Positions 23,724-39,817 of a stretch of DNA of 64,000 nt are shown here, in pieces. The notes beneath the pieces were generated by a model that saw only the letters and a list, made by a program, of their open reading frames with translations, ran no database searches and was not told the DNA's origin. Where the stretch lies: the NCBI GenBank assembly GCA_902613175.1, contig CACMGJ010000002.1:1-64000 (forward strand), in the 5' to 3' direction. Every line of letters begins with the position of its first letter. Position 1 is the first letter of the stretch. A program made the translations under genes and the position numbers. This stretch comes from Halieaceae bacterium. Lineage in GTDB: Bacteria > Pseudomonadota > Gammaproteobacteria > Pseudomonadales > Halieaceae.

Positions 23724-24185
23724 ATGTTTTGCCCCTTTTGCGGTGCCGATGACACAAAGGTAATTGATTCCCGACTCATGGCTGAAGGCGGCCAAGTGCG
23801 ACGTCGTCGAGAATGTGTGACTTGCCGAGAGCGTTTCACGACCTACGAGGCGGCCGAACTCGTGATGCCACGCGTGATTAAACAAAATGGTAGTCGAGAG
23901 CCTTTTGACGAAGATAAGTTGCGCTCAGGCTTGCAGCGCGCCCTCGAAAAACGCCCTGTGGCGGTGGAAGCGGTTGAGAGTGAGCTCGCACAGATTAAAA
24001 ACCGACTGCGTGCTACCGGTGAGCGCGAACTAGATTCCCGCGTTTTGGGCGAGCTCGTCATGGAGGCGCTCAAGCGACTCGATCAAGTGGCCTATGTCCG
24101 TTTTGCATCCGTTTACCGAAGCTTTGAGGACCTCTCAGAGTTCCGAGATGCCATCGCATCGCTCGAAGCTGATCCACAGACGTAA
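23724..24185 (+). CDS. nrdR: Transcriptional repressor NrdR
   Basis: A protein of 153 residues. The N-terminal zinc ribbon has CPFCG and CVTCRERF (residues 3-38); the ATP-cone domain (about 49-139) starts [18 protein letters not shown]. It represses ribonucleotide reductase genes in response to dATP/ATP. Its place between glyA and ribD is conserved in gammaproteobacteria. ribD begins six bases after its stop. Confidence 0.97.
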
Positions 24186-24191
24186 AGCATC

Positions 24192-25307
24192 GTGAACTAC
24201 TCAGATGATCATTGGATGCGTCTGGCTATCGAGACGGGGAGATGCGCTCGCGTGTGGTCATCGCCCAATCCTGCGGTCGGCTGCGCCATCGTAAAATCCA
24301 ACGAAGTTCTCGCGATGGGGTTCACGCATCCGACCGGTCAGTCGCATGCTGAGATTCACGCGCTTTCCCAGATCGCAGATGCAACGGGCAGCACGGTTTA
24401 TGTGACGCTCGAGCCCTGTGCACACACCGGTCGAACGCCTCCTTGTACACAGGCGCTGATTGACGCCGGGGTAGCGCGGGTGGTGATTGCCTGCATTGAT
24501 CCCGATGAGCGTGTTGCCGGGAGAGGGGTAGAGCAGCTGCGCTCGGCGGGAATCGATGTGACGCTCGGCGTTTGTGAAGCAGAAGCAGCCGATGAGCTCG
24601 CTGGCTTTTTCCTGAGGCTAAAGCGCGGTTATGGACGTGTCACCGTGAAGATGGCGATGTCGGCCGACGGCCGCACGGCAATGGCCTCAGGGGAGAGTCA
24701 GTGGATTACGGGTGAGGAAGCGCGAGCGGACGTCCAGGCATGGCGCGCCTGCTCGGATGTAATAGTGACCGGGAGCGGCACGGTGTCAGCTGATGATTGC
24801 TCGTTGACCCTCAGACCCTGTGACAACCGTCTCGACTCAGACGATTGGAAGAGAGCGATGGTGGCGCCAACGCCGAGAGCTGTCATCGATACCAACGCCA
24901 GCACTCCCGCATCGGCGAATGTGGTGACTGGAGTTACGCCAACTACCCTATTCACGCGGGAGGCCGCATCTCTGGATTCATCCATGTCAGACAACGTCTG
25001 CCAGGTGCCGATAGCCAGTAGTGCTGCCGGGTTGGATGTGCGCCAGGCGTTTTTAAAACTCGGAGAGCAGGGCGCAAACGAGATTCTTGTTGAGGCTGGC
25101 CCGACGCTGGTCGGCGCGCTCGAGCAAGAGAACTTGATCGATCAGTGGCTGATTTACATGGCGCCTGTAATGTTGGGTTCCGACGCCCAGCCGACTCACC
25201 ACGCCGTATTTAACTCACTTGGACAAACAAATCGTTATTCAATTTCGTCTCACGACCTGATTGGTGAAGATTTGCGTATTATCATGCGCCAGGTTGCAAA
25301 GGGCTGA
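24192..25307 (+). CDS. ribD: Bifunctional riboflavin deaminase/reductase RibD
   Basis: A protein of 371 residues catalysing the second and third steps of the pyrimidine branch of riboflavin synthesis. The N-terminal zinc deaminase (1-145) has SHAEIHAL (near residue 52) and PCAHTGRTPPC (near 76). The C-terminal reductase (150-370) has VTVKMAMSADGRTA and a late EAGPTLVGA segment. GTG start; nrdR is immediately upstream. It belongs to ribD-ribE-ribBA-ribH-nusB. No FMN riboswitch was seen in the narrow upstream gap. Confidence 0.95.
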   Translation: MNYSDDHWMRLAIETGRCARVWSSPNPAVGCAIVKSNEVLAMGFTHPTGQSHAEIHALSQIADATGSTVYVTLEPCAHTGRTPPCTQALIDAGVARVVIACIDPDERVAGRGVEQLRSAGIDVTLGVCEAEAADELAGFFLRLKRGYGRVTVKMAMSADGRTAMASGESQWITGEEARADVQAWRACSDVIVTGSGTVSADDCSLTLRPCDNRLDSDDWKRAMVAPTPRAVIDTNASTPASANVVTGVTPTTLFTREAASLDSSMSDNVCQVPIASSAAGLDVRQAFLKLGEQGANEILVEAGPTLVGALEQENLIDQWLIYMAPVMLGSDAQPTHHAVFNSLGQTNRYSISSHDLIGEDLRIIMRQVAKG

Positions 25308-25347: not shown

Positions 25348-26004
25348 ATGTTTACCGGAATCATACAAGCCGTTGGCGAAGTGGCTGCACTTGAGCAGTC
25401 GGGCGGCGATCTAAAACTGCGGGTCAAGACGGGCAAGTTGCCGTTAGCTGATGTTCAGTTGGGCGATAGCATTGCAACCAACGGTGTTTGCCTCACGGTG
25501 ACTGAGCTCCCGGGGGACGGCTACTGGGCTGATGTGTCTAATGAAACGCTTTCACTGACATCACTCAGGCAAATTTCGATCGGTAGTCCGGTAAATATAG
25601 AGAAGTCATTGACGCCTACCACCGCGCTTGGAGGCCATTTGGTGAGTGGTCATGTCGATGGTCTTGGTACGGTGGTCGCACTTAGCCGGGATGCCCGATC
25701 GTGGCGCGTATCAATCGAAGCACCGGCGGATCTCGCGCGCTACATTGCACCCAAAGGCAGCATTTGTGTCGACGGGACCAGTCTCACGGTGAACTCGGTG
25801 TCAGGTGCTCGTTTTGAACTCAATATCATTCCTCAGACGTGGGAAGAAACCGTTTTCAGCGAATATAGGGTGGGCACGGAAGTCAATCTCGAGGTGGATA
25901 TCATCGCGCGTTATCTGGAGCGTTTACTCCAGTCGGGTGTCGTTCCGACGTCAGAGCGTATTACCTTGGATACATTGAAGAACGCGGGGTACCACAGTGA
26001 TTGA
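25348..26004 (+). CDS. ribE: Riboflavin synthase alpha chain
   Basis: A protein of 218 residues with the duplicated lumazine-binding barrel. The first repeat starts MFTGIIQAVGEV, with TNGVCLTVTEL. The second repeat starts near residue 98 with GGHLVSGHVDG and has DGTSLTVNSV. It converts two lumazines to riboflavin. The AAGGAAAAG ribosome site precedes the ATG. Its last bases overlap the GTG start of the next gene. Confidence 0.96.
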   Translation: MFTGIIQAVGEVAALEQSGGDLKLRVKTGKLPLADVQLGDSIATNGVCLTVTELPGDGYWADVSNETLSLTSLRQISIGSPVNIEKSLTPTTALGGHLVSGHVDGLGTVVALSRDARSWRVSIEAPADLARYIAPKGSICVDGTSLTVNSVSGARFELNIIPQTWEETVFSEYRVGTEVNLEVDIIARYLERLLQSGVVPTSERITLDTLKNAGYHSD

Positions 26005-27130
26005 TTCAGTACCGCCCGTTTCAGCAGACCAGCTCATCAGCGAGTTCCGTCACGGTGAAATGGTTTTGTTGGTGCTTGATCAGAGTGACGGCGAGCAGAC
26101 AGCCGTCGTTGCTATGGCAGCTGAATACTGTAAGGCCGAACATGTGACATTCATGGCGCGCCAAGCACGGGGGTTGGTGAGCCTGGCCCTGACTGAGGAG
26201 CTTTGCGAGCAGCTAAACTTACCACCTATGGTCGATCCTGCCACTTCGGGCGCAGTGAAGCTCTCTATTGAGGCGAGCGCAGGCATCGATACAGGCATCT
26301 CTGCGGCAGATCGTGCACACACGGTTCGAGTGGCAGTGGCACCTGACGCCAAGCCCTCGGATTTGGTGCAGCCAGGTCATATATTCCCGGTGGCTACGCT
26401 CACGGGCGGGGTGCTGATTAGAACCGGGGCCGCAGAAGCAGGTGTCGATTTGGCAACGCTCTCGGGTTTAACGCCCGCAGCCGTATTTGCCGAGGTGTTG
26501 GATGCGAACGGTGATCTTGCGAACGCCGCTGCTTTGGTCGACTTCGCGGATAAATATGATCTTACGGTTGGACGCGTTACGGAACTTGTTGATTACCGTT
26601 TAAATCATTATCGAACCGTCGATCTGATTCGCAGTGGCACCATCACGACACGCCATGGTGATTTCATGCTGTCGGTTTACCAGGAGAGCACGCAAGGCCA
26701 TGTTCACATGGCGCTCAGTGTCGGTGATATCCATGTCGACACACCGACCTTGGTTCGTGTGCACACAACGGCATCCATGCGTGATCTCTTGTCCGTGACA
26801 TCCACTGTGCAAGTCTCTTGGTCGATTCAAGATAGCCTTAGTCGCGTTGCCGCAGAGGGAAGCGGTGTGGTGGTTCTCATTAACAAAGAAGAAACCGATG
26901 CTGATTTATTAACTCAGGTGGACGCTGTGCTCGGCGCTGATTTGCCGGATGATTCGCAGCAACGGAGCGTTGGCTATTCGCAGGTAGGTATGGGCGCGCA
27001 AATTTTACGTGATTTGGGTGTTGGCAAAATTCGACTTATGGGTGCACCCGTGAAGTACAATGCGCTCGAAGGCTTCGGACTCGAAGTCGTTGAGTTTGTG
27101 GAGCCAGGGGCTGTAGCCTCGGGGCAGTGA
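25997..27130 (+). CDS. RibBA homologue with eroded active sites
   Basis: A protein of 377 residues laid out like RibBA: a DHBP-synthase-like half (1-200) and a GTP-cyclohydrolase-II-like half (205-365). Fold markers remain (GISAADRAHTVR, PGHIFPV, GVDLATLSG; later GAQILRDLGVGKIRLM). Key residues do not. The acidic loop expected as DDEDRENEGD reads LDQSDGEQTA near residue 28. The catalytic His of GHTEA is Ala145 in GAAEA. In the second half the three zinc cysteines expected after VRVH are absent (VHTTASMRD). Known: proteins with only the second half eroded occur as monofunctional DHBP synthases. Inference: this copy may lack both activities and serve a structural or regulatory role, with functional ribB/ribA elsewhere. 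No frameshift is present. Confidence 0.8.
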   Translation: MIDSVPPVSADQLISEFRHGEMVLLVLDQSDGEQTAVVAMAAEYCKAEHVTFMARQARGLVSLALTEELCEQLNLPPMVDPATSGAVKLSIEASAGIDTGISAADRAHTVRVAVAPDAKPSDLVQPGHIFPVATLTGGVLIRTGAAEAGVDLATLSGLTPAAVFAEVLDANGDLANAAALVDFADKYDLTVGRVTELVDYRLNHYRTVDLIRSGTITTRHGDFMLSVYQESTQGHVHMALSVGDIHVDTPTLVRVHTTASMRDLLSVTSTVQVSWSIQDSLSRVAAEGSGVVVLINKEETDADLLTQVDAVLGADLPDDSQQRSVGYSQVGMGAQILRDLGVGKIRLMGAPVKYNALEGFGLEVVEFVEPGAVASGQ

Positions 27131-27142
27131 GGAGAAAAAGGT

Positions 27143-27625
27143 ATGGCGTCAAATACAATTGCGACGACTGAGGGTCAGCTCAGTGGCGTTTCTGGGCGGT
27201 TTACGCTGGTTGTTGGCCGGTGGAATAGTTTTGTTGTAGAGCATCTACTCGAAGGCGCGATCGATACGCTCAAGCGTCATGGCATCAGCGAAGATCAACT
27301 GCACATTGTCAGAGCGCCGGGTGCCTTTGAAATACCGATGGTGTGTCAGGTGGTGGCAAAGCGTGGTGATTGCGACGCGATTATTGCGCTCGGCGCCGTT
27401 ATTCGCGGTGGTACCCCTCACTTTGAGCATGTCGCTGGAGAATGCACCAAAGGCATAGCGCAGGTGTCACTGGATTCGGGTGTTCCTATTGCTTTTGGCG
27501 TGCTCACGGTTGATTCGATTGAGCAAGCAATCGAACGCTCTGGCACGAAAGCCGGCAACAAAGGCGCTGAGGCGGCCATGAGTGCGCTTGAGATGGTAAG
27601 CCTTCTGGGTGTGTTGAAAAGCTAA
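27143..27625 (+). CDS. ribH: 6,7-dimethyl-8-ribityllumazine synthase
   Basis: A protein of 160 residues, normal length, with [48 protein letters not shown] (containing the catalytic His) and [23 protein letters not shown]. It condenses the ribityl-uracil and butanone phosphate to lumazine, the substrate of RibE. A GGAG site precedes the ATG. Its stop and the nusB start share a base (TAATG). Confidence 0.97.
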
Positions 27626-28068
27626 TGACCTCAATTAATGTGCTCGCCGCTCAACGTCGACGAGCTCGTCACTTTTGTATCCAAGCGCTGTATCAGTGGT
27701 CAATGACCGGGGCGACGGCTTCGTCTATTGAGGCAGAGTTCCGCACTGACAATGACTTCACCAACGTCGATACTAAATATTTCAATGAAATGTTGGTCGG
27801 TATCACTCGCCGGGTCGAAGAGCTTGATGGCATCTTTTCGCCGTTCCTCGATCGCGAGCTCGATGTGCTCGATTGCATTTCACGTAATTTGCTTCGACTC
27901 GGCACGTTTGAGTTGTTAGATCGGATTGATGTACCTGCGAAGGTCACACTGAATGAGACGGTTGCGCTCGCAAAAAAGTTTGGTGCGACTGACTCCTATC
28001 GCTACGTCAATGGTGTGCTGGATCAAGTTGGATTGAAGCTGCGCGCGCAAGAGCTGGCTGGGCACTAA
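27625..28068 (+). CDS. nusB: Transcription antitermination factor NusB
   Basis: A protein of 147 residues, all helical, with RRARHFCIQALYQW at the start and VPAKVTLNETVALAKKFGATDSYRYVNGVLD near the end, the family signature. NusB with S10 (NusE) binds boxA RNA and prevents termination in rRNA operons. It is translationally coupled to ribH, a conserved arrangement. Confidence 0.97.
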   Translation: MTSINVLAAQRRRARHFCIQALYQWSMTGATASSIEAEFRTDNDFTNVDTKYFNEMLVGITRRVEELDGIFSPFLDRELDVLDCISRNLLRLGTFELLDRIDVPAKVTLNETVALAKKFGATDSYRYVNGVLDQVGLKLRAQELAGH

Positions 28069-37512: not shown

Positions 37513-37588
37513 GCTGGCGTAGCTCAGTAGGTAGAGCAGCTGATTTGTAATCAGCCGGTCGGGGGTTCGATTCCTCTCGCCAGCTCCA
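37513..37588 (+). tRNA. tRNA-Thr (anticodon TGT)
   Basis: A 76-base cloverleaf. The acceptor is GCTGGCG/CGCCAGC plus encoded TCCA; the anticodon stem CTGAT/ATCAG encloses TTTGTAA with anticodon TGT; the T-loop is GTTCGATTC. It is the first of a Thr-Tyr-Gly-Thr set before tuf, the same order as thrU-tyrU-glyT-thrT-tufB in E. coli. A T-rich stretch follows. Confidence 0.97.
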
Positions 37589-37805
37589 TTTTTTCTCGAC
37601 ACATTTTTTTCTTTGGTACCTCGCACGACCGCTGCTGTCGCCCGGCTGTATCGTGTTCCGACGCCTAGGCGGCGCGTAATTTGCAGTCCGCCCGAGCCGA
37701 GTCGTTGAGGGGATCCGGGAGCGAAAATTACGACTGCTCGAACGCATTTCTCAAATCGAGGGCAAACGCAGGCGTAAAGCGGTATTTTGAGGGTAAAATT
37801 TAGTG
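37589..37805 (+). other. Spacer between tRNA-Thr and tRNA-Tyr promoter
   Basis: About 217 bases between the first tRNA and the next promoter. It begins with two T-runs that may end transcription from the first promoter. No open frame or further tRNA was recognised. E. coli has these tRNAs packed closely, so the long spacer with its own promoter is a difference. Confidence 0.4.
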
Positions 37806-37834
37806 TTGACACCCTTCCTTGACATCTAGAGAAT
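37806..37834 (+). promoter_or_regulatory. Promoter upstream of tRNA-Tyr
   Basis: TTGACA at 37806, a 17-base spacer, then GAGAAT at 37829, followed by GTGCGCCCTTC identical to the sequence after the first tRNA promoter. Transcription would start just before the tRNA-Tyr 5' end at 37847. A second TTGACA at 37819 lies within the spacer. Confidence 0.65.
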
Positions 37835-37846
37835 GTGCGCCCTTCT

Positions 37847-37930
37847 GGAGGGGTTCCCGAGTGGCCAAAGGGATCAGACTGTAAATCTGACGCGCGAGCT
37901 TCGGTGGTTCGAATCCACCCCCCTCCACCA
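37847..37930 (+). tRNA. tRNA-Tyr (anticodon GTA)
   Basis: An 84-base class II tRNA. The acceptor is GGAGGGG/CCCCTCC plus ACCA, the anticodon loop CTGTAAA with anticodon GTA between CAGA/TCTG stems, a long variable arm, and the T-loop GTTCGAATC. Second tRNA of the cluster. Confidence 0.97.
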
Positions 37931-38068
37931 AGGATGATATAGAACGCTGCTAACGCGGTGTTTGTGAGTGGAACAAGGGGGCTGAACCGGATAAGCCCTG
38001 TCGCGAGAGCGATGAGCCGTAAGCTGACGGTAGGCTTTGGGTTTGACCACCGTCGGCGGTAAAATGCT

Positions 38069-38142
<74 letters not shown>

Positions 38143-38162
38143 TGATCCGGCGATGAGTTTTT

Positions 38163-38238
<76 letters not shown>

Positions 38239-38400
38239 ATTTGAGCAGGCGCCTTTCGGTGTTTGTTCGACCGCTCCGGCGGTCAGAGCAGTAGAGGCCA
38301 CGGCCTATACTGAGTGAGGTACACAGCGGTAGGTGTGCTTAATTGAGTAAGGCGCGTTGGCGTTGGGAAGTAATGCGAAATTGACCAGGAGAGGGTCGCA

Positions 38401-39624
38401 ATGGCTAAAGAAGCATTTGAGCGTAATAAACCCCACGTAAACGTGGGAACAATTGGGCACGTTGACCACGGTAAGACAACACTGACTGCAGCGTTGACGC
38501 GTGTGTGCTCTGAAGTATTTGGTGGTGAGGCAGTTGCGTTCGATGGTATCGACAACGCACCTGAAGAGCGTGAGCGTGGTATCACGATCGCAACCTCGCA
38601 CGTAGAGTACGAGTCTAACGACCGTCACTACGCACACGTAGATTGCCCCGGACACGCGGACTACGTTAAGAACATGATCACAGGTGCTGCGCAGATGGAC
38701 GGCGCTATCCTGGTATGTGGTGCGACTGACGGCCCAATGCCTCAGACTCGTGAGCACATCCTGCTTTCACGTCAGGTAGGTGTTCCATACATCGTTGTGT
38801 TCATGAACAAAGCAGACCTTCTTGCAGAAGACTGTGGTGGCGTTGACAGCGAAGAATTCGAAGAGATGAAAGAGCTTGTCGAGATGGAGCTTCGTGAGCT
38901 TCTCGACACTTACGAGTTCCCTGGCGACGACACGCCGATCATTTGTGGATCTGCACTGATGGCGTTGAACGGTGAAGATGAGAACGGTCTTGGAACAACT
39001 GCAGTTAAGTCGCTTGTTGAGACACTTGACTCTTACATCCCTGAGCCAGAGCGTGCTATCGACCAGCCATTCTTGATGCCTGTGGAAGACGTGTTCTCTA
39101 TTTCAGGTCGCGGCACGGTGGTTACCGGTCGTGTTGAGCGCGGCATCATAACTGTGGGTGATGAAGTCGAAATCGTTGGTATCAAGGAGACAACCAAGAC
39201 TACTTGTACTGGTGTTGAGATGTTCCGTAAGTTGCTTGACGAAGGCCGCGCAGGTGAGAACGTGGGTGTTCTTCTGCGTGGTACTAAGCGCGACGAAGTT
39301 GAGCGTGGTCAGGTTCTTTCAGTACCTGGGTCAGTTCAGCCACACACTAAGTTCGAAGCGGAAGTCTATGTTCTGTCAAAGGACGAAGGTGGCCGTCACA
39401 CGCCATTCTTCAAAGGCTACCGTCCTCAGTTCTACTTCCGTACGACTGACGTAACAGGTGCCGTTGAGCTCCCTGCTGGCGTAGAGATGGTAATGCCAGG
39501 TGACAACCTGAACTTCGTTGCCACTCTGATCGCTCCGATCGCTATGGAAGAAGGTCTGCGTTTCGCTATCCGTGAGGGTGGTCGAACAGTTGGCGCTGGC
39601 GTTGTAGCAAAAATCATCGAGTAA
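38401..39624 (+). CDS. tuf: Elongation factor Tu
   Basis: A protein of 407 residues. The GTPase domain has [11 protein letters not shown] near residue 19, the switch [16 protein letters not shown] near 81 and NKAD near 136; domains II and III follow, with the late [24 protein letters not shown] (in part). It delivers aminoacyl-tRNA to the ribosome. A short acidic insertion follows NKAD. A GGAGAGG ribosome site precedes the ATG. Codon use is strongly biased, as for a highly expressed gene. This is the tufB position; no second tuf follows fusA. Confidence 0.98.
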
Positions 39625-39667
39625 TCGGTGAGACTGTAAGGTGCGATTCGTCGTATCTCCGAATTGA

Positions 39668-39698
39668 GCCGAACCGCCCCTGTGGCGCGTTCGGCTTT
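39668..39698 (+). terminator. Terminator-like hairpin after tuf
   Basis: GCCGAAC and GTTCGGC pair, with an inner CGCC/GGCG stem and a one-base bulge, followed by TTTG. The T-run is short, so some readthrough into tRNA-Trp-secE-nusG is likely. Confidence 0.5.
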
Positions 39699-39741
39699 GT
39701 CGTCTATGCCGATTAGGTGAAGGGCGGCTAACAGATGTGAT

Positions 39742-39813
<72 letters not shown>

Positions 39814-39817
<4 letters not shown>

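Follow-up and report, generated by a model that had tools for sequence, protein, structure and literature searches.

A RibB-like protein of a Halieaceae riboflavin operon, devoid of its own catalytic residues, is likely one subunit of an obligate heterodimeric DHBP synthase

In the homodimeric DHBP synthases (RibB) of E. coli (1g57) and V. cholerae (4p8e), the active site is shared across the dimer and both halves of the site are present in every subunit. The V. cholerae site was described as being built from loops 1 (34-41), 2 (82-98) and 3 (175-185) of the first monomer and from loops 4 (103′-111′) and 5 (132′-138′) of the second monomer, with loop 4 acting as the lid and Glu41 touching Thr108′ (PMC5228156). 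As summarised in the same paper, changes of Glu39, Glu41 and His154 abolish the activity, and in the M. jannaschii enzyme the equivalent of Thr108Ser lost activity while that of Asp114Ser reduced it. E. coli residue numbers, which are used hereafter, equal the V. cholerae numbers minus one. RibBX proteins, known from A. baumannii (6mnz), Shewanella oneidensis and Aeromonas salmonicida, combine a RibB domain with a GTP-cyclohydrolase-II-like domain (RibX) without zinc cysteines. An E. coli ribB mutant, unlike a ribA mutant, is complemented by the A. salmonicida RibBX, and in S. oneidensis the RibB half of RibBX is said to be under the control of the X domain (PMC10012899). For other enzymes, a dead paralogue that pairs with an impaired partner has been described in Trypanosoma brucei as a prozyme, both for deoxyhypusine synthase (PMC3663545) and for AdoMetDC (PMC5201418), and for deoxyhypusine synthase the heterotetramer exceeds the homotetramer of the catalytic subunit about 3000-fold in activity (PMC3663545). 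In the titles and abstracts from searches of open-licence PubMed Central, the level at which most of these papers were seen, there was no heteromeric or split RibB.

The window, that is, the whole stretch of 64,000 nucleotides that was analysed, contains the cluster nrdR-ribD-ribE-A-ribH-nusB, in which a RibB-like gene, hereafter copy A, sits between ribE and ribH and shares 8 bases with the 3′ end of ribE:

23724..24185, + strand: nrdR, first gene of the cluster
24192..25307, + strand: ribD
25348..26004, + strand: ribE, riboflavin synthase, upstream neighbour of copy A
25997..27130, + strand: copy A, a RibB-like plus RibX protein of 377 aa with a GTG start
26618..27100, + strand: RibX domain of copy A, GTP-cyclohydrolase-II-like, without zinc cysteines (the RibBX state)
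27143..27625, + strand: ribH, lumazine synthase, downstream neighbour of copy A
27625..28068, + strand: nusB

The frame of copy A is open from the GTG at 25997 to the stop at 27130, and its product matches the Pfam families DHBP_synthase (188 bits; 189.7 bits in the genome-wide search) and GTP_cyclohydro2 (125.4 bits). Among PDB entries, 6mnz, the RibBX of A. baumannii, matched it best, with a query-length TM-score of 0.78, and the AlphaFold models of copy A and of the second copy described below had mean pLDDT values of 84.2 and 85.7, respectively. Neither the window nor a 16-kb region around the second copy had an FMN riboswitch at the Rfam gathering score. Elsewhere in the window, five tRNA genes are clustered on the + strand (37513-39814).

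Copy A thus has the two-domain architecture of the RibBX proteins, and like them it carries a RibA half without a zinc site and lies in the rib operon between nrdR and nusB. The zinc motif C-x10-C-x-C of GTP cyclohydrolase II, which a bifunctional RibBA would carry, was not found in copy A. The initial annotation had rightly reported these cysteines as missing (they are also absent from the second copy), but the erosion of the RibA half, which the annotation had called common by itself, is the known RibX state and not a second independent loss. The unusual part is the loss in the RibB half. The RibB half of the A. salmonicida RibBX keeps the critical residues (PMC10012899), whereas that of copy A lacks its own catalytic residues and is predicted to be catalytically incompetent. 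The segments concerned are as follows:

26075..26104, + strand: loop 1 (residues 27-36), formerly catalytic, now LDQSDGEQTA instead of DDEDRENEGD; residues of the own site lost
26282..26314, + strand: loop 4 and its end, residues 96-106, GIDTGISAADR; candidate lid for the active site of a partner, kept
26363..26383, + strand: loop 5, residues 123-129, LVQPGHI; the second partner-lent loop, kept
26429..26431, + strand: codon of Ala145 at the position of the catalytic His153

Alignment to E. coli RibB confirmed the earlier observation that the acidic loop is replaced, LDQSDGEQTAV standing against the DDEDRENEGD of intact enzymes, with the one exception of Glu33, which falls in the Glu38 column and is the sole loop residue in a catalytic column; Arg37, Glu40 and Asp42 are absent. 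The reading of the catalytic His as Ala145 also held, Ala145 and Ala146 occupying the columns of His153 and Thr154. The set that marks an active RibB (the loop with Arg37, Glu38, Glu40 and Asp42, together with His153) is therefore not present in copy A, and since an Ala stands at His153 and the acidic loop is gone, the idea that the catalytic residues are displaced but present was rejected. On the other side, copy A carries the residues of the partner-lent loops, its Thr99, Asp105 and His128 corresponding to Thr107, Asp113 and His136 of the E. coli enzyme.

The conservation of these losses in relatives, a check that had been proposed with the initial annotation, was examined across 43 copy A sequences. 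Asp42 was kept in none and Arg37 in two, and Thr107 and Asp113 were kept in all 43; among the best 120 database hits of copy A, Thr107, Gly108, Ser110 and Asp113 were kept in all 119 that are ungapped there. In other Halieaceae genera, Glu35, Glu38 and Asp42 were kept in 0/15 sequences, Arg37 in 2/15, and Asn39, Glu40 and His153 in 15/15, the last three being kept in 0/23 of the window's genus. The erosion of copy A, as read from these residues, is stepwise from the other Halieaceae to the window's genus. A sequencing or assembly artefact was rejected, as related losses occur across the genus.

The genome containing the window (58.6% complete) has one other DHBP-synthase match, copy B, on contig C15 (L006:7267-8376), which is 35% identical to copy A. 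By its Pfam score copy B looks intact (277.6 bits vs 189.7 for copy A), its loop 1 reads DDEDRENEGD, HTEA is present, and every own-site invariant residue of loops 1-3 is kept. Its loop 4, however, reads SVGPGVSARQR in place of the GVTTGISAADR found mostly in intact RibBs, so that the loop-4 residues of an active RibB, Thr107 and Asp113, are missing. Each of the two was kept in 0/38 copy B sequences, and both occur in 31/31 intact sequences that were fetched without a loop pattern. Among the best 120 database hits of copy B, residue 107 was Pro in 117, Ala in two (one of them the copy B of L. syltensis) and Thr in one, and residue 113 was Gln in 119. The only copy B-type hit with Thr107, the metagenome protein P0130, is likely chimeric; its N-terminus appears unrelated, its C-terminus appears to be that of a Luminiphilus copy B, and it also seems to contain a RibB stretch of foreign origin. 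Other partner-lent residues are retained by copy B (His136 in 38/38, Gly108 in 37/38 and Ser110 in 33/38), and its loop 4 is itself fairly constant within Halieaceae (GPGxSxxQR, with exceptions). Since each site takes loops 1-3 from one monomer and loops 4-5 from its partner, copy B is without two residues of the lid and copy A is without the catalytic loop. The earlier supposition that active RibA and RibB are encoded elsewhere in the genome was thus half right: the search found a separate RibA on contig C5 (L007:5128-5943) carrying CLTGDVFGSQRCEC, but the only other RibB found in this incomplete genome is lid-deficient, and the same holds in near-complete relatives. This stand-alone RibA has 271 aa and its zinc cysteines, with a Pfam match that spans only about 127 residues. 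Copy B lies outside the operon, with ribE or ribH adjacent in 0/38 loci and a thiolase-like neighbour in 28/38; in the window's genome a thiolase-like gene stands beside it at L006:8429-9607.

Residues were read in 188 distinct RibB sequences, of which 106 kept both loops, 44 had lost loop 1 only, 38 had lost loop 4 only, and none had lost both. All 38 loop-4 losses came from Halieaceae (f1, the window's family) or one further family (f9), as did 43 of the 44 loop-1 losses, the remaining one being from Pseudomonas vancouverensis. Outside these two families both loops were kept in 106/107 RibBs read, and none of the 106 intact sequences came from inside them; 75 of the 106 intact loci derived from a peptide-pattern scan (FMAR[QK]ARG, TGISA[AKP]DRA) that is biased towards an intact loop 4, whereas the other 31 were fetched independently of it. 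The main facts, namely that Thr107 and Asp113 are kept in A and absent from B, are independent of the biased loci. Luminiphilus, Haliea, Congregibacter, Halioglobus and Parahaliea were among the names of the loci and hits.

Profile scores interleave A, B and the intact RibBX proteins of the order, and classes were assigned by residues for the fetched loci only. By residues, 25 genomes of the window's genus comprised 19 with A and B, four with A only and two with neither, and 20 other genomes comprised 18 with both, one with A only and one with B only. L. syltensis (G442) has A and B, and a third match is absent. In all 38 two-copy genomes read (19 of the genus, 18 others and L. syltensis) the losses were complementary and there were exactly two RibB matches, so that in each of them a paralogue without catalytic residues has a partner in the same genome, as for prozymes. 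The wider search of 57 genus genomes, in which A and B were told apart by score, gave 45 with both, seven with A only, one with B only and four with neither; one genome (G428) had a second B-scoring copy and another (G438) two extra fragments. Seventeen of the genus genomes reach 90% completeness with no more than 5% contamination; 16 of them had just two RibB matches and one (G429, 95% complete) had neither A nor B by score. A third, intact RibB hidden in the incomplete genome of the window was rejected as an explanation, given its two Pfam matches and the same number in 16/17 of these high-quality genomes.

The distribution of the losses over the protein was then compared with the published loops. 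Invariant sites were those constant in at least 95% of the 106 intact RibBs (72 sites), a site was lost when kept in less than 90% of a copy's sequences, and the division into own-site and partner-lent classes rests on the V. cholerae loop definition (PMC5228156). Copy A had lost 28 and copy B 10 of the 72 sites, and none was shared against 3.9 expected (hypergeometric p 0.0046, which ignores clustering; 7/72 circular shifts also gave zero). In the own-site loops 1-3, A had lost 12/14 sites and B 0/14, and in the partner-lent loops 4-5, A had lost 0/9 and B 5/9 (Fisher p for own vs partner-lent loops, 6.7e-5 for A and 0.0037 for B); the losses of A and of B each trace to one lineage, so the 38 genomes do not count as independent cases, nor do sites that lie next to each other. 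When a site was called lost only if kept in under half of the sequences, the counts were 9/14 own and 0/9 partner-lent for A, and 0/14 and 3/9 for B. With the 31 unbiased intact sequences, A showed 12/14 and 0/7 and B 0/14 and 3/7 (p 0.00031 and 0.026), and p was 0.018 for A and 0.1 for B at the half cut-off. Laxer definitions of invariance gave three shared lossy sites vs 6.2 expected (90%) and 10 vs 13.3 expected (80%). The X half had only 19 invariant sites, one lossy in A and four in B, with an overlap of 0 vs 0.2 expected, too few lossy sites for a comparison.

These results suggested that copy A is a RibB-like subunit whose losses are mirrored in reverse in copy B, and that the two are likely obligate partners in a heterodimer that has a single active site shared between them. 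In the proposed mechanism, copies A and B would bind each other, loops 1-3 of B and loops 4-5 of A would make up one composite site producing DHBP, the reciprocal site would be dead, and neither homodimer would suffice; one gene would give the catalytic loops and the other the lid for the synthesis of this four-carbon precursor of vitamin B2. Extended to the whole group, the reading is slightly less firm: DHBP synthase in Halieaceae and one further family would probably be an obligate heterodimer that arose by reciprocal loss in paralogues, no single complete RibB being left. The initial annotation had called copy A a pseudoenzyme, which agrees with its residues in that it is neither an ordinary RibB nor an ordinary RibA, but copy A, though dead alone by these residues, is likely half of a split enzyme. 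The required vitamins of L. syltensis, C. litoralis, H. rubra and Chromatocurvus halotolerans were given as biotin, thiamine and B12, and L. syltensis also requires histidine, riboflavin being unmentioned in the text of that description (PMC3679898). As L. syltensis has only A and B and riboflavin is not among its listed needs, the pair probably supplies DHBP in at least this species, unless an unrelated enzyme or uptake does. A separate case in P. vancouverensis suggests that a dead RibB can be retained for the lid that it lends: its RibBX-like protein (L134:5839-7095) has a broken loop (DDEHNGEGS), HVEA and an intact lid, it has lost 13 invariant sites, none of them in loops 4-5, and the two other RibBs of this genome are intact.

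Some observations argue against the heterodimer reading. Copy B keeps His136 and nearly all Gly108 and Ser110, which a strict split would be expected to free; copy A of other Halieaceae genera keeps Asn39, Glu40 and His153, and that of the window has Glu33 in the Glu38 column; some genomes of the genus are without the full pair; and with 35% identity between A and B, dimer compatibility is not obvious. In an alternative that we regard as unlikely, copy B is an active homodimer with a changed lid and supplies all DHBP, while copy A is, as the initial annotation had proposed, a dead regulator or scaffold, acting through RibX or by titrating B. The complete own site of copy B, the relative constancy of its loop 4 within Halieaceae and the regulatory role ascribed to the RibX of the Shewanella RibBX (PMC10012899) are consistent with this alternative. 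However, in M. jannaschii the equivalent of Thr107 is reported to be needed for activity and that of Asp113 to contribute to it (PMC5228156), both are missing from 38/38 copies of B, and an active B homodimer leaves unexplained why the siteless A keeps the two residues in 43/43 sequences. It is less probable still, and in our view quite doubtful, that copy A forms a homodimer with a new activity or ligand at a novel loop, S-x-G-x-x-T-G, while copy B carries out the ordinary reaction. Ser30, Gly32 and Thr35 of this loop are identical in 15 genus alignment rows and the frame and fold of copy A are kept, yet L. syltensis has Lys instead of Thr in the loop, and the loop is absent from copy A of the other Halieaceae genera that share the pairing.

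In a tree of 79 rows, computed with the trait columns masked and without an inferred root, the A sequences of the two families formed one side of a branch (100/99), and their B sequences one side of another (94/98, below the tool's star). Copy B stood among eight intact RibBX proteins of families f4, f10, f11 and f40, its nearest intact relatives, all of which keep both loops, with ribE and ribH absent within their flanks of about 1.5 kb. Copy A loci had ribE upstream and ribH downstream in 39/43 cases, the other four having this arrangement in part by the script's rule. In one set of searched genomes, those with a single, full-length copy kept both loops in 10/10 cases, six with ribE or ribH adjacent and four without either in the flank. 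Operonic and stand-alone RibBX proteins thus seem once to have coexisted, and it would seem that the lineages read with one RibBX kept both loops and the two-copy lineage divided the active site. Having two copies does not by itself lead to a split, since the Pseudomonas genomes examined have two or three RibBs each, all intact except one.

Copy A is under purifying selection, as the initial annotation had supposed from its intact frame. The frame is open and full length in 42/43 copy A sequences (the remaining one stops at a contig end), and the dN/dS analysis, another of the proposed checks, gave low median values of 0.047 for the RibB half and 0.060 for the X half of A, and 0.018 and 0.051 for those of B, from those eight of 136 genome pairs that are close, with four genomes accounting for six of them. 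With an open frame and a dN/dS of about 0.05, copy A as a pseudogene was rejected. That copy A is a decaying relic of an operonic ribBX, kept by operon position or translational coupling only, is very improbable: the stepwise erosion of its catalytic loop towards the window's genus and its 8-base overlap with ribE would fit such a relic, but the low dN/dS of both halves in those eight pairs, the 42/43 full-length frames and a loop 4 unchanged at Thr107 and Asp113 speak against it.

The A-B pair resembles the described systems to different degrees. With homodimeric RibB the pair has in common the fold, the loop 4/5 residues and, as predicted here, the dimer-shared site, but the halves of the site would lie in two genes. 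The plant proteins RIBA2 and RIBA3 are RibBA paralogues without catalytic residues that have lost one of two separate enzyme domains, whereas A and B have lost halves of one active site. Like the prozymes of T. brucei, copy A would be a dead paralogue of an impaired partner; those are other enzymes in a eukaryote and were shown biochemically, whereas the A-B split of an intersubunit site is predicted from sequence. With A in the rib operon and B outside it, RibB output would be coupled to how strongly the operon consuming its product is expressed. If the prediction is true, a textbook homodimer has, in a family of marine bacteria, come to be encoded by two genes that are not redundant, each having lost the half of the intersubunit site that the other keeps; this would be a clear-cut natural example, at the resolution of individual catalytic residues, of duplication, degeneration and complementation, and an apparently dead gene would be half of a working enzyme.
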